From assembly GCA_937139605.1 (NCBI GenBank), contig CAKZQG010000023.1, positions 1 to 5,621 of the forward strand: 5,621 nt of DNA, in the 5' to 3' direction. The notes under the pieces were generated by a model. The model made no database searches. It saw nothing but the letters and a program-made list of their open reading frames with translations, and was not told the DNA's origin. Position numbers and translations under genes: made by a program. Below, piece by piece: positions 2-5,621 of the stretch. The number at the start of each line of letters is the position of its first letter. Within the stretch, counting starts at the first letter, position 1. Origin of the DNA: an uncultured bacterium (GTDB taxonomy: Bacteria > DRYD01).

Positions 2-3000
2 GAAAAAGCTACTACTGATATGTTTGGTATTTATGATATTGATGAGATAAATTTATTCAATATGGTATATTTACCCGTATGGTTTGGAAGTTATTATAGG
101 TATAGTAAAAAAGATAGATTTAGCTATAACTTTTTACTAACAGAGAATAGTAGTTTAAATAGCATAAAAGAACAATTTGAAGAATTTTTATCAGGCAAAT
201 TCCCAAGTAAAACATTTAATATTGATTTTAAACTATTAAATGATTTACTTATCAAACACAATGCAACTGATGACATAGAAATACGAAGTTATTTACGTGT
301 TATGGGTTATCAGATAGTGAATAACAGGATACAAAGATTAAATATTGATAGAATAAAGGAATTCATAAAAGAAATTAATGAATTAAACATTAATGAAAAT
401 GCAGATTTGACTTCATTTATAAATAAATATTCACCTGATTTAAGTTTAGTAAACAAAGCTATTGCTACAAGTTTAATATCTGATTATTTAACTTTTAAAC
501 CCGCTTTATATGGTATTATAATTCCTAATAATCATCCTTATAACATTAAAGCTGTTCCTTATCGTAATAATCAAAGTTTTTATTTTTCTTTTGAATCATT
601 TTTGGCTTATTATATAGGAAATAGTTATAGTGGAAGAAAAAAAGGTATAAATCCACTCTATTATGATACAGAATTAGCTCCTGGATATGAACACGGAGAC
701 AGTAAAATACCTAAATTAAAAATGAATGCTTTTAACTTAAATAATTTCTTTAAACATTCTTCAATAGCAATTAACAGAAATGCCATTATTTCGTTATTCA
801 AATTTGTTGACCCAAGAACAAGGTTATACAAAGAAGCTAATATAAGAGATAGTTTTATTAAAACTTTACTAAGTTATTACACTCAAAAAATAAGATTAGA
901 AAAATACTTACCAATATTTTTATATCACAATATGGCTACTAAAGAGGGAGTAGCTGAATTTGAAATTAGTAAAGATAACAAAATTAAAATAGAAATTGAT
1001 AAAGAGCTTAAGATAAAGATTACCCAAATAGTTGGTGATACTGAAATAAAAGAAAAGCTTAATAGAGAAAATATAGAACGATTAGTTAGTTTAATTGACT
1101 TTAGTTCAATAGAAAATCAAGAAAAGGCAAGTCAATTAATATCTGGTAAAAGTAGTAAATATGATGAAATTGATACTACAATTATGAGTAGAACTGATTT
1201 AGTATTTATTGTGGATACCATAATACAGGATGCTTTAAATAGAAAAACTCAATTTGACAAGAAATTAGATGAACTTGTAAATAAGTATTATCCAGAAGCT
1301 TTAGAGCAAAGTCAAGGACGAGGTAATATTAATTTTATTTTAGTTAATTTAATTTCCAAAGATAAAGAATATAGCAAGTTATATGATTTACTTATTACAT
1401 CATTAAACAGTAAAGATATACCTTTACTTGTTAAATCTTTAATGATGACACAGGAATACAGAAGTAAAGAATATAGAGCAGGATTAACTAATGATAATAT
1501 ACAGTTATTAATGTCTCTAATGGCTAAATATACTCCCAAATTATTTAACGATTACATAGTGGATATAAAAAGGTCAATAGTTAGTTCAAATAAACAAGTT
1601 GGTTCTATACTAAATGCTGACGATACTGGAAGGACAGATGATGAATTAGCTTTAATGTTCCCATCATTTGAAAGAACTGCTGATTTCAGTATGGATAGTC
1701 AGCTATTCAAAGAATTTGGGATTGAAGGTAAGGAATTAGTTGAAAGATTCAATCAGATTGGAATTGAATCATCATCATTACAGGAAAGATTAAAAGAAAT
1801 TAAAACTGGTGGTGAACATCAGAAATTTAAAGAAGCCATAAAAGAAATGGTAGAAGTTAACTATGAATCTGGATTAAAAAAGGCATTAGAAATACTAAAT
1901 AAAAGAATAGATGACTTAATAGTTTTTACATATGTTCAAGAAGATAATGGTGATTACACACTTTTATTAGATAAAGATAAAATAAAGCAAATCATAAAAT
2001 ATATCAACTGGGGAAAGATAAAAGGTGATGACGTTAATAAGACTGCTATATTACTTGCTACTATGTACACTGATATAGATAGAGCAATTACTCAAAAAAA
2101 TACTCCTAATGGTAGAAGAATACATATGTTACATCAAATGCATAATTTACTAAGTCCTTTAGCGAGAGTAGGTGAGAAGTTAGACATTGAAGATGGGTTT
2201 TACTTTAATATTAATGCAAGATATATAGAAGATGAAAAGAATAAAAGAACAGTTATAAATTTAAATGATTTAATTATTGATAGTTCCGCTGTATATGAAT
2301 ATCATACAAGAATATATGAAAACAGTTTAATGCGTGGTTTTATAAATGCTTTTCAGATAGCAAGATACAGAGAAATGAGAAGTAATAATGAAAAGAACAT
2401 ATTGATTAAAAAATTAAAGGCAATTATAGAGGAAATAGAACATAGTGTAGGTTCAGGAGAGAATAAGTTATTGTTTTATAAATCTTTAAAAGAAATGTTT
2501 AATGTAATTTCTTTATCTCCAATGATAATAAGAGAAAAGCAAGATGCTAAAGGTTTTTACTACATTTACAACGATAAATCTTATGACACAAGGGATAGAA
2601 TTGTAAGTGTGTTATCTGATATGATTAAATTCAAAGATAGAGGTACAAATATAGATAAAACATTATTGATAGAAACCGTTATCAAAATTAAAGAATTATT
2701 GGCTATAATACACAGTAAAGCTGTAAGAGGTGCTAATATCATAAACTATATGATAGAAAATGGAATAATCAAAGATGAAACAAACGCTTCTATATTAAAA
2801 AGGAAAGGTGTTTTATATTCAATAATTGCTAAAGCAATACAATCGGGTAAAGCAGGGAAGGAAATATTATTCAATTACTTACCTAAGATGTATAATTCAA
2901 ATGAATTTATTTTATCATACATTACAGATGAAGAAGTTATATCTAAAAAGATAAAATTATTAATGGAAAAATATAACAAAAACGAACTAACTAATTATGA

Positions 3001-5419
3001 AAAAAGAATCATTGATGAAAACGGTGGAAATTTAAGATTAGCTTCTATTAAATTACTTGAAGGTGAAATTAAAAGAGTAGTAGGAGATAAAAATTACTTT
3101 ATACCTGCTTTAGTTAATATGAAATATCAAATAGACAGTGCTGTAGCAGTTGATGATATAGTATTGACATTAAACAATTTTATGGAATCTTTTATAAACT
3201 TAATTAGTGATACTTTTGATGAAATAAACTATTCAATAACTATTGAATCATTAAAGAGAACTAATGATTATAATGACAAGACAGTGAAGTTATTTAAAAA
3301 CTATATGAAATTAGGTTCTAATTTAGATTCAATACAATTAGAAACTGTAAATACAATTGATTTACCTGTTGGCAAAAAGGTAGTATTGAATAAAGAATAT
3401 CAAAGAACGATATACGTAGATGGAATGCCATTGAAAGTAAGTGAAATATCTATTATAGATGGTTATTTTGTAGGTGTTGAAGGTGATACTGTATATATAT
3501 CTAAGAACAAAGATTTATCTTATCCTATTGGATACACAGATGCATTTATAGTAAAAGATGGAGTTAGAATACCTGCAAGTGAGCAAGTTAACGTTCCAAT
3601 TGATTATGAAGGATTCATATCAGTCAATAGTGATAGTGTAGCAGGTAGGAGCATTGCTAAAGCATCTCTTAATTCAAGGAGAATAATAGTTAAAACTGCG
3701 TTAGCTGGATTCAGAACGCTTGGTACTATGGTTAAACAAGCATTAGGATTACTTATTACCACTACTTCATTATATGGCACTAAATTTACAAGATATATGT
3801 TAAGAGAAGCCAATATACAAGAAGCTATTGTTAAAGAGAAGGATTTAAGTGGTTGGTTTGAAAAAAGATTATACAAAGGGTTAGGAAAGCCAACAAGTTT
3901 CAGAAGAACTGAAAGTGAATTAGCTGAATTAGAAGCTACGATTGCATATATTACTTCTATTACTAATGTTGGTATATATGATGCTTTAACAGGTAGAATT
4001 AAGACAATAGCTGAAGATGATATATTCGGTTCAGATTTATCTAAAAGAGAAATTAGAAAAATAGTTAAACACAGTAAATCACATAAATTATTCAGCGAAT
4101 ATATTAAGTTAAAAAGAGAAGCGATTAAAAAGCAGATAGAGGAAGGTAATTTAGAAAACTTAAGATTACTTAATAAACTAAACTACGACCTTAATGTATC
4201 GCAAGATGAATTTGAAGAATTAGCAGCCAAAGTTAAAGAGATTGGAGATGAACAATTAGATAATTTAATTACTATAATTGAACAATTAAGAGAAGTTAGA
4301 GATGAACTAATAGATAAAAGAATAAACAGTTATGCAGTTAAATCACTTGCTAAAAGTAAGAAAGCTGAAATTAGTGCTGAAGCTGGTATAGGCAGAACAC
4401 AAATATTAGAATCTAAATTAAGAGCTAAATTACTTGTAATGTTATATAATGTAGCAAGGCAATATGGTAAAACTCATCAAGAAGCATTAGCATTTGCAGT
4501 AGCACAGATAGAATACTGGCACGCAGTATATAATGAAAGAGCCAAGTTACTATCGCATACAAAGGAATTAAATAGGTTTTTGGATATGTTATTTCATTAT
4601 ACAAGTACGGTGGTTAAAACGTTTAAACAGTTTAAGCGATATGATAAAAAGAGATTTAAGCAAATATATTCATTACTGGAAGATTCTGAAAAATTAGTAG
4701 AAGAAATGAAAAATTCTAAAGAGCCATATACAGATGTAAGGGCATCTATGAGAAGGTTATATTTAGTATCGGCTATAATGCACAACTTATCTGAATACGT
4801 ATTTGGATTAAGCAGTTTAATATTTCCGATAATGGCAGCCAAGATGATGTTAATTACTTTAATAATCAAATATTTGTTATATGATGATAATGAAAAAAGA
4901 GATAAAGCTACTAAATATGAATTATATATGTTAATACAGGTATTAATTTCATTAAGGTATGGGATGGGAATGGGGTTAACGGCAAGTCCAGCAATAGCAC
5001 ATTTAGTTGACATAGGTAGTGAAGATAAAGAAGATGATGTAATTGATACATTAAAATATCCAGGTGGAGCTCTAACCAGACTACCTAACATAAGGGCTTT
5101 AGGGGCGTTATATGAAATAACTCTAAGAAGGTATATAACTGATGATGACAGTGAAGTAAATTGGATGCAAGAAGGTAATACATTTTTAACATCGGGATTA
5201 GGGTTAGGATTTAATTTATTCAACTTAAAGGAATTCAGAGATTACAACTTAGCATTTTTAGAAGGTTCAACTATATTTGGAAATGTATTTATACCATTTG
5301 GTAAGCAATTATACATTGGATTGACAGAAGATGATACAAGGGTTAAAAGAAGAAGAAGAAATACTGAATATCAAGAAAAAACATTCATAAGGGATTTTAT
5401 AAGGGATTTATTTAGATGA
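2..5419 (+). CDS. Giant phage protein, probable virion-internal/ejected or polyvalent protein (5' partial)
   Basis: Uninterrupted frame of 1,805 codons plus TGA, still open at the left edge. The first ATG is at 20, but the codons before it (Glu-Lys-Ala-Thr-Thr-Asp) stay in frame and bases 2-19 hold no Shine-Dalgarno sequence, so the real start is probably upstream. Numbered from the Met at 20: a mixed N-terminal part with a short alternating beta stretch (about 313-338); mostly charged helical sequence to about 1110; a beta-rich module (1112-1220); a Gly/Ala/Leu-rich hydrophobic helix (1227-1254); a charged helical stretch (1339-1460); a C-terminal helical part with a hydrophobic segment (1593-1621); a KRRRR cluster (1776-1780); and an amphipathic tail. 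There is no cysteine and only five tryptophans. I found no P-loop, HExxH or DxDGD motif. It lies directly upstream of, and overlaps, a probable terminase gene. Size, position and the C-terminal pattern resemble phage large polyvalent or internal virion proteins. That role is inference. The gene itself is certain. Confidence 0.9.
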   Translation, partial: EKATTDMFGIYDIDEINLFNMVYLPVWFGSYYRYSKKDRFSYNFLLTENSSLNSIKEQFEEFLSGKFPSKTFNIDFKLLNDLLIKHNATDDIEIRSYLRVMGYQIVNNRIQRLNIDRIKEFIKEINELNINENADLTSFINKYSPDLSLVNKAIATSLISDYLTFKPALYGIIIPNNHPYNIKAVPYRNNQSFYFSFESFLAYYIGNSYSGRKKGINPLYYDTELAPGYEHGDSKIPKLKMNAFNLNNFFKHSSIAINRNAIISLFKFVDPRTRLYKEANIRDSFIKTLLSYYTQKIRLEKYLPIFLYHNMATKEGVAEFEISKDNKIKIEIDKELKIKITQIVGDTEIKEKLNRENIERLVSLIDFSSIENQEKASQLISGKSSKYDEIDTTIMSRTDLVFIVDTIIQDALNRKTQFDKKLDELVNKYYPEALEQSQGRGNINFILVNLISKDKEYSKLYDLLITSLNSKDIPLLVKSLMMTQEYRSKEYRAGLTNDNIQLLMSLMAKYTPKLFNDYIVDIKRSIVSSNKQVGSILNADDTGRTDDELALMFPSFERTADFSMDSQLFKEFGIEGKELVERFNQIGIESSSLQERLKEIKTGGEHQKFKEAIKEMVEVNYESGLKKALEILNKRIDDLIVFTYVQEDNGDYTLLLDKDKIKQIIKYINWGKIKGDDVNKTAILLATMYTDIDRAITQKNTPNGRRIHMLHQMHNLLSPLARVGEKLDIEDGFYFNINARYIEDEKNKRTVINLNDLIIDSSAVYEYHTRIYENSLMRGFINAFQIARYREMRSNNEKNILIKKLKAIIEEIEHSVGSGENKLLFYKSLKEMFNVISLSPMIIREKQDAKGFYYIYNDKSYDTRDRIVSVLSDMIKFKDRGTNIDKTLLIETVIKIKELLAIIHSKAVRGANIINYMIENGIIKDETNASILKRKGVLYSIIAKAIQSGKAGKEILFNYLPKMYNSNEFILSYITDEEVISKKIKLLMEKYNKNELTNYEKRIIDENGGNLRLASIKLLEGEIKRVVGDKNYFIPALVNMKYQIDSAVAVDDIVLTLNNFMESFINLISDTFDEINYSITIESLKRTNDYNDKTVKLFKNYMKLGSNLDSIQLETVNTIDLPVGKKVVLNKEYQRTIYVDGMPLKVSEISIIDGYFVGVEGDTVYISKNKDLSYPIGYTDAFIVKDGVRIPASEQVNVPIDYEGFISVNSDSVAGRSIAKASLNSRRIIVKTALAGFRTLGTMVKQALGLLITTTSLYGTKFTRYMLREANIQEAIVKEKDLSGWFEKRLYKGLGKPTSFRRTESELAELEATIAYITSITNVGIYDALTGRIKTIAEDDIFGSDLSKREIRKIVKHSKSHKLFSEYIKLKREAIKKQIEEGNLENLRLLNKLNYDLNVSQDEFEELAAKVKEIGDEQLDNLITIIEQLREVRDELIDKRINSYAVKSLAKSKKAEISAEAGIGRTQILESKLRAKLLVMLYNVARQYGKTHQEALAFAVAQIEYWHAVYNERAKLLSHTKELNRFLDMLFHYTSTVVKTFKQFKRYDKKRFKQIYSLLEDSEKLVEEMKNSKEPYTDVRASMRRLYLVSAIMHNLSEYVFGLSSLIFPIMAAKMMLITLIIKYLLYDDNEKRDKATKYELYMLIQVLISLRYGMGMGLTASPAIAHLVDIGSEDKEDDVIDTLKYPGGALTRLPNIRALGALYEITLRRYITDDDSEVNWMQEGNTFLTSGLGLGFNLFNLKEFRDYNLAFLEGSTIFGNVFIPFGKQLYIGLTEDDTRVKRRRRNTEYQEKTFIRDFIRDLFR
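3353..3676 (+). other. Beta-rich module within the giant protein (residues about 1112-1219)
   Basis: This stretch differs from the helical, Lys/Glu/Ile-rich sequence around it. It is rich in Val, Ile, Tyr, Gly, Asp and Pro in short alternating strands separated by turn-like GD, DG and NK pairs (for example VDGMPL, VEGDTVYIS, VKDGVRIP). The pattern suggests a compact beta-sandwich or barrel of about 100 residues. It is followed by a Ser/Ala/Arg-rich linker and then a hydrophobic helix starting near residue 1227. I recognise no family. The boundaries are estimates from the amino-acid pattern. Confidence 0.45.
4034..4399 (+). other. Highly charged helical / possible coiled-coil region (residues about 1339-1460)
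   Basis: The segment is dense in Lys, Arg, Glu, Leu and Ile with very few Gly or Pro. Hydrophobic residues are spaced by three or four in places, such as the stretch around EQLREVRDELIDKRI. This fits long amphipathic helices and possibly a coiled coil, which could mediate self-association or packing in a virion. Coiled-coil status is judged by eye and not scored. Confidence 0.45.
4409..5134 (+). other. C-terminal helical region, LPD38-like pattern (residues about 1464-1705)
   Basis: The region opens with E-x3-R (E1464, R1468) and a hydrophobic helix, then G1483 with HQEA (1486-1489) and an alanine-rich helix reaching W1500. It goes on through an aromatic stretch (LFHYTS), a hydrophobic segment (1593-1621) ending in acidic residues, a second hydrophobic helix (about 1635-1645), and a Pro/Gly loop (YPGG, RLPNIRALG). 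This order (Arg-bearing helix, 'G...EA' turn, aromatic segment, hydrophobic hairpin, acidic linker, Pro-rich loop) recalls the C-terminal region of very large phage proteins annotated as large polyvalent protein-associated domain 38. The resemblance is from memory of the pattern and may be only structural. It is not a verified family match. Confidence 0.33.
5387..5409 (+). repeat. 12-base-period tandem repeat encoding FIRD-FIRD
   Basis: The 11-mer ATAAGGGATTT occurs at 5387-5397 and again at 5399-5409. The period is 12 bases, exactly four codons, so the protein ends in a duplicated Phe-Ile-Arg-Asp unit followed by Leu-Phe-Arg. The alternation of hydrophobic and charged residues makes an amphipathic C-terminal tail. 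The near-perfect DNA identity suggests a recent in-frame duplication. It also duplicates the AAGGGA element that serves as the ribosome site for the next gene. Confidence 0.7.
5401..5406 (+). promoter_or_regulatory. Weak Shine-Dalgarno for the downstream gene
   Basis: AAGGGA lies 9 bases before the ATG at 5416, a normal spacing, and is a partial match to AAGGAGG. It sits inside the last codons of the giant gene. With the ATGA stop/start overlap, the downstream gene is probably translated by reinitiation or coupling, helped by this site. The same hexamer occurs 12 bases earlier as part of a tandem repeat, but that copy is too far from the start to be ideal. Confidence 0.5.
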
Positions 5420-5621
5420 AATGTATAAAATGTAATAATAAAGCGGTACAAGACAGATTATGTTATCATCATTACATAGATTCCAAAGAAGAGATATTCA
5501 GTGATAACTCTAATATAGATAACTTAGGGATAATACAATGGGCCAAATATTTCTTACCTCATCACGTTAAGAATGAATTTCCTCCAAAGCATAAATTCAT
5601 ATATGCAATGTTACTTAACCT
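5416..5621 (+). CDS. terL: Probable phage terminase large subunit with N-terminal zinc knuckle (3' partial)
   Basis: The frame starts at ATG 5416 inside the ATGA overlap with the preceding gene and runs off the right edge after 68 codons. Residues 3-18 form a compact Cys/His motif (C3, C6, C16, H18 or H19), like the small zinc knuckles found in phage and HNH-type proteins. After a short acidic linker, residues 42-67 carry a WAKYFLPHH segment, a PP-x-H element (P56, P57, H59) and IYAMLL. This matches the usual N-terminal lead-in of terminase large subunits, the ATPase/nuclease motor that packages DNA into procapsids, which typically have a 'YFLPH...P.FH.eiy..LL' pattern before the Walker A loop. 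The Walker motifs and nuclease domain lie beyond the window, so the assignment rests on this segment and on the context beside a giant phage-type gene. The alternative is another phage zinc-binding protein. Confidence 0.62.
   Translation, partial: MKCIKCNNKAVQDRLCYHHYIDSKEEIFSDNSNIDNLGIIQWAKYFLPHHVKNEFPPKHKFIYAMLLN

Follow-up and report, generated by a model that had tools for sequence, protein, structure and literature searches.

What kind of protein is encoded by a gene of more than 1,800 codons that lies directly in front of a phage terminase gene and resembles no known family? The question is raised by a window of 5,621 bp, which is one complete contig (G000:C23) from a 1.88-Mb, 45-contig bin. 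Since the window is the entire contig, the giant gene and the terminase gene are both cut by contig ends.

The contig and the relatives of its giant protein

Reading frame 2 of the plus strand is uninterrupted from base 2 to a TGA at 5417 to 5419 and thus comprises 1805 codons, with its left end open; the longest stop-to-stop run in the other frames has 214 codons. The GC content at the three codon positions of this frame (0.356/0.288/0.172) has the pattern of a coding frame. The first-pass annotation had described, for the interval from 2 to 5619, a left-open giant gene coupled to a probable terminase gene; the left-open giant frame is real, the interval holds two genes and the giant stops at 5419. 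As that annotation had also stated, the protein exceeds 1,800 residues and has no recognised match: its 1805 residues matched nothing in Pfam, PHROGs, PDB sequences or 50,697 phage records, and direct IMG/VR scans and one genome-collection scan returned nothing.

Relatives were reached via the portal protein encoded on another phage contig of the same bin (C20). This portal is of the P22 type (PF16510, E = 3e-35; phrog_156, E = 6e-38), and C20 also has a gene for an SU10-like capsid protein (E = 9e-5, slightly short of the Pfam cutoff); a primase-helicase is encoded on contig C14. With the portal as query, a 58-kb IMG/VR phage (L084; 51% identity) and a contig of a Candidatus Goldbacteria bin (74% identity) were found. 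In that bin, contig L090 has a left-open frame, at least 3,468 aa long, followed by the gene for the large terminase subunit (TerL), and the 58-kb phage encodes a 4,008-aa protein five bases ahead of TerL. Residues 1682 to 3465 of the L090 giant align with the full length of the window protein, and 33 to 35% of about 1,790 positions are identical (E = 5e-258). This homology across the whole frame demonstrates a real, conserved gene, and the feature at 2 to 5419 (plus strand) encodes the last 1805 residues of a phage giant, with the 5′ end of the gene outside the contig. In its C-terminal part, the best-conserved block of the alignment is KLLSHTKE..RFLDML.HYTS (residues 1515 to 1535; bases 4544 to 4606, plus strand). 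A hydropathy scan revealed that residues 1604 to 1622 (bases 4811 to 4867, plus strand), some 200 residues before the C terminus, are strongly hydrophobic, and similar segments are found 140 to 210 residues from the end of the other three giants. The third of these is encoded on contig C18 (L005) of the window's own bin, where a giant frame (at least 1,392 aa) is followed by a terminase start 72% identical to that of the window.

IMG/VR scans with the terminase fragment or its DNA pattern, with the C18 giant, with the 4,008-aa giant and its TerL, or with the window-L090 alignment gave no new relatives, and no further giants were found in the phylum of the window's bin (7 genomes) or in that of the Goldbacteria bin (45 genomes). 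Hosts were assigned solely by binning, and the two bins with such phages come from separate phylum-level sets.

Two further contigs of the bin resemble each other: bases 1 to 952 of C21 (L060) are 72 to 84% identical over parts to bases 3533 to 4594 of C31 (L064), which also suggests that the bin contains a pair of related phages. An open frame of 796 aa on C31 may represent the N terminus of one of the giants. The portal/capsid contig C20 (L059) ends in a seven-repeat CRISPR array (8434 to 8863; repeat TCTCAATTCCACTATGGTTCGATTAAAAC, spacers of 36 to 39 nt). No other copy of the repeat was found in the bin, and the spacers were unmatched among the phage contigs compared; the array is either a phage-borne mini-array or the mark of a chimeric contig. 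Tandem protein repeats (TSSIYHYFGIRESIK...ILGISKxLRTNF) occur at the break ends of C20 (L059, 1 to 570) and C30 (L063, 3397 to 3942). Long degenerate tandem repeat arrays surround a 399-codon open reading frame on C1 (L052, 239 to 1351 and 2612 to 3552), and the stretch between these arrays has a copy on C35 that is 91 to 93% identical.

The terminase gene and its junction with the giant

The second gene (5416 to 5619, plus strand; 3′ end outside the contig) encodes the N-terminal 68 residues of a large terminase subunit. These run MKCIKCNNKAVQDRLCYHHY...WAKYFLPHHVKNEFPPKHKFIYAMLLN, bear a metal-binding-like CxxC...CxxH cluster and align with the full-length TerL proteins of two related phages. 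Identity amounts to 51 of 68 residues (75%) with the 625-aa TerL of the Goldbacteria-bin phage contig, which matches phrog_38 "terminase large subunit" (E = 7e-51), and to 46% with the 646-aa TerL of the second phage (phrog_38, E = 2e-58). The earlier guess of a terminase was therefore correct; the assignment is made from the N-terminal 68 residues, and the Walker motifs would fall past the contig end.

Comparison of the gene order showed the giant gene directly 5′ of terL in all four loci (the window, C18, L090 and the 58-kb phage), in line with the first-pass observation that the giant adjoins a terminase gene. That annotation had also proposed translational coupling. In the window, the giant stop overlaps the terminase start in an ATGA (5416 to 5419, plus strand), and a Shine-Dalgarno-like AAGGGA (5401 to 5406, plus strand) lies inside the giant gene, 9 nt 5′ of the terminase ATG. 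Judged from these elements, coupled translation is plausible in the window phage, but the junction varies among the four loci (overlaps of 4 nt in the window, 44 nt, and 11 nt in L090, and a 5-nt gap in the 58-kb phage) and the ATGA is not conserved.

The last 77 nt of the window (5545 to 5621) are identical to the contig end of C18, whereas the approximately 108 bases before them are only about two-thirds identical. Further upstream, BLAST detected no similarity between the two giants, which have only a weak C-terminal hint in common (E = 0.12). A fork in a de Bruijn graph at k = 77 leaves an exact 77-base overlap at the contig ends. Such a shared end would result from two related phages with a common terminase sequence, and equally from a population in which giant modules are swapped at the start of terL; giant modules may thus be exchanged.

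Polymerase motifs in the longer relatives

The first-pass annotation had noted the lack of an RNA polymerase signature. This is correct for the window but results from truncation, because residue 1 of the window protein corresponds to about residue 1,660 of the L090 giant, some 650 residues past a DxDxD block. Both longer relatives carry this block upstream of the part that matches the window (GKDYDAD and GKDFDID), in a conserved double-psi-barrel sequence context that is absent from the window: EYIQALGKDYDADVIYAV at residue 1015 in L090 and HTQSKVGKDFDIDVMNIL, also given as HTQSKVGKDFDIDVMNILFP, at residue 2317 in the 4,008-aa protein. Both blocks match phi14:2 gp77 (TKTGSDFDIDKMYVML). The phi14:2 virion RNA polymerase (vRNAP) has TKTGSDFDIDKMYVMLP at residue 1361, and the counterpart in crAss001 gp50 is TLSGSDFDVDKLYIMLP.

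When a profile of L090 and the 4,008-aa protein was compared with nine crAss-like vRNAPs by hhalign, a score of 45.2 was obtained (E = 3.7e-4; the search space in these pairwise profile comparisons is one, so E values are lenient). The reversed alignment scored 23.2 and 60 column shuffles scored at most 25.8. The match spans 61 columns and stops just after the DxDxD motif. Portal, capsid, terminase, stabilisation-size and cargo-size proteins from the phages studied here, compared with their crAss counterparts, as well as mismatched pairs, scored at most 22, and the polymerase block is the only place where similarity to crAss counterparts exceeds noise. A profile HMM of the crAss D block had its best matches where they were expected, at residues 970 to 1032 of L090 (E = 1e-6) and 2293 to 2359 of the 4,008-aa protein (E = 2e-4), and so had an HMM of the crAss lysine block in the 4,008-aa protein, at residues 1905 to 1940 (E = 2e-4). 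The two blocks of the latter protein stand in the expected order. Its lysine block reads MRENNIALLMSSSAVKVN, compared with MEENQIDVVQFDSAVKVG in Dulem virus 41, and its SSAVKVN motif lies 386 residues before DxDxD; in the crAss-like pattern, the SAVKVG of the second barrel lies about 300 residues before. The lysine block of L090 is recognisable by eye only, and a two-sequence profile of the lysine block did not rise above its controls. Only some 60 residues around DxDxD can be aligned with crAss-like vRNAPs, and many two-barrel RNAP families resemble each other only around this motif (PMC10770324). Single-sequence AlphaFold models of the relative's polymerase region and of the last 601 residues of the window protein were unusable (mean pLDDT of 35 and 38).

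The window frame is the C-terminal part, probably about half, of a podovirus-like phage protein of 3,500 to 4,000 residues, and the motifs of the relatives suggest that the missing N-terminal half most likely carries an RNA polymerase with both barrels (double-psi beta-barrels) in a single chain, like those found in crAss-like virions. We therefore favour, with a probability of about 0.7, the reading that a short-tailed phage outside the Crassvirales packages a giant fusion protein with a two-barrel RNA polymerase in its virion and that the window encodes the C-terminal half of this fusion. The earlier proposal of a new class, drawn from the missing polymerase signature, did not hold, since both longer relatives carry crAss-like vRNAP motifs upstream.

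Could the giant instead be a polyvalent ejected protein (Iyer et al. 2017) in which metallopeptidase and host-takeover domains replace a polymerase and the DxDxD is fortuitous? Polyvalent proteins are giant, often packaged by phages and often equipped with zincin peptidases (PMC5512222), and the 4,008-aa relative has a metallopeptidase-like HEGLH motif at residue 1304 with a weak match to Peptidase_M78 (E = 0.11). The motif block, its flanks, the order and the spacing nevertheless fit crAss vRNAPs and beat every shuffle, and we regard a polymerase-free polyvalent protein as unlikely; the two readings also overlap, as vRNAPs can themselves be part of a polyvalent protein. In no chain were at least two recognisable effector or enzymatic domains found, as would be expected of a polyvalent protein: the window has none, and the relatives have only the HExxH and RNAP motifs. 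The HEGLH motif does not occur in the visible part of the Goldbacteria-bin homolog.

The window gene could also be a shorter one that starts near the left contig edge and encodes only the C-terminal module, such as an ejection or envelope-channel protein, with no polymerase. Its 5′ end does lie outside the contig, and neither the N-terminal half nor a homolog of it is encoded on any contig of the bin. However, homology to the fused protein starts within the first residues of the window and is unbroken, the two relatives that extend further upstream are both fusions, and a fragmented bin is expected to miss contigs; the remainder of the window's terL is absent from the bin as well. A short gene is thus improbable, and still less credence can be given to a tail tape-measure protein. 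Giant size and a hydrophobic segment would suit the latter, and Thermus phage P23-45 has a tape measure fused to a vRNAP in gp96 (PMC10770324), but the portal is of the P22 type (PF16510, E = 3e-35), the gene order is suggestive of a short tail, and the window has no match to a tape-measure family.

Comparison with known packaged polymerases

The favoured polymerase fusion has its closest parallels in crAss001 and Flavobacterium phage Fpv1. The gene order is similar (a stabilisation-size protein, two mid-size proteins and the giant), so that the giant stands in the virion block after two mid-size cargo-type genes, as do the crAss-like vRNAP crAss001 gp50 and Fpv1 gp33. The DxDxD block has the same flanking pattern as in crAss-like vRNAPs, and the protein is a single fused chain like Fpv1 gp33 (4,401 aa). 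There are also differences. Portal and TerL match phrog_156 and phrog_38 best, rather than phrog_6547 and phrog_6681 as in crAss001/Fpv1, although the crAss001 portal also has a weak match to phrog_156; terL comes immediately after the giant, whereas it precedes the portal in crAss001 and Fpv1; and the genome of the 58-kb relative is smaller than the 89 to 103 kb of crAss001/Fpv1-type genomes. Membership in the Crassvirales was rejected, as the crAss-type portal and TerL families were not matched and the capsid was without similarity. The window itself had no direct similarity above noise to crAss gp47-, gp49- or vRNAP-type proteins, and therefore the C-terminal half of the giant cannot be equated with gp49.

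P23-45 gp96, a 5,002-aa virion protein, likewise combines a two-barrel RNAP with a giant chain, a long non-polymerase part, a metallopeptidase and membrane segments (PMC10770324). In gp96, the RNAP forms the N terminus of a tape measure, which determines the length of the very long tail, and no sequence match to it was found. The polyvalent proteins described by Iyer et al. (2017), among them N4-like vRNAP fusions, are also giants of portal-terminase phages and likely co-ejected. No polyvalent-protein domains were detected in the window, and the N4 vRNAP is a T7-type polymerase, unlike the two-barrel kind proposed here.

The three RNA-polymerase-associated giants of crAss001 (gp47, gp49 and gp50) were detected in virions by mass spectrometry (PMC10172136), and phi14:2 gp77 and Fpv1 gp33 are annotated as virion proteins, the phi14:2 giants from MS/MS. 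The first-pass annotation had envisaged a phage protein of the packaged or ejected type, and phage origin and protein type are both supported; from gene position and relatives we infer that the protein is located in the virion. We also infer that the polymerase half is present in the window's own phage and that the giant is active as a polymerase. By analogy with the known systems, the giant would be made late, together with the terminase, and packaged in the head. It would then traverse the portal and tail in a partly unfolded state, before the DNA or along with it, and, once injected, transcribe the first phage genes. The C-terminal half, with its hydrophobic segment near the end, may serve in packaging, in passage of the envelope or as an accessory to the polymerase.

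These giants might represent a separate lineage of giant two-barrel vRNAPs, fused to a long C-terminal extension and encoded by short-tailed phages outside the Crassvirales as a swappable module before terL; we put the chances of this at about even. The hosts would be members of poorly known bacterial phyla, and the swapping is suggested by the two dissimilar giants at one shared terminase sequence. Only a few phage groups are known to package two-barrel RNA polymerases, and these enzymes have diverged so far that they escape sequence searches. If the favoured reading is true, a wider range of phages, with another portal/terminase type and from candidate-phylum bins, would bring their own transcription enzyme into the cell, and a simple rule would serve to find more cases: to look for DxDxD in a giant gene just ahead of terL.
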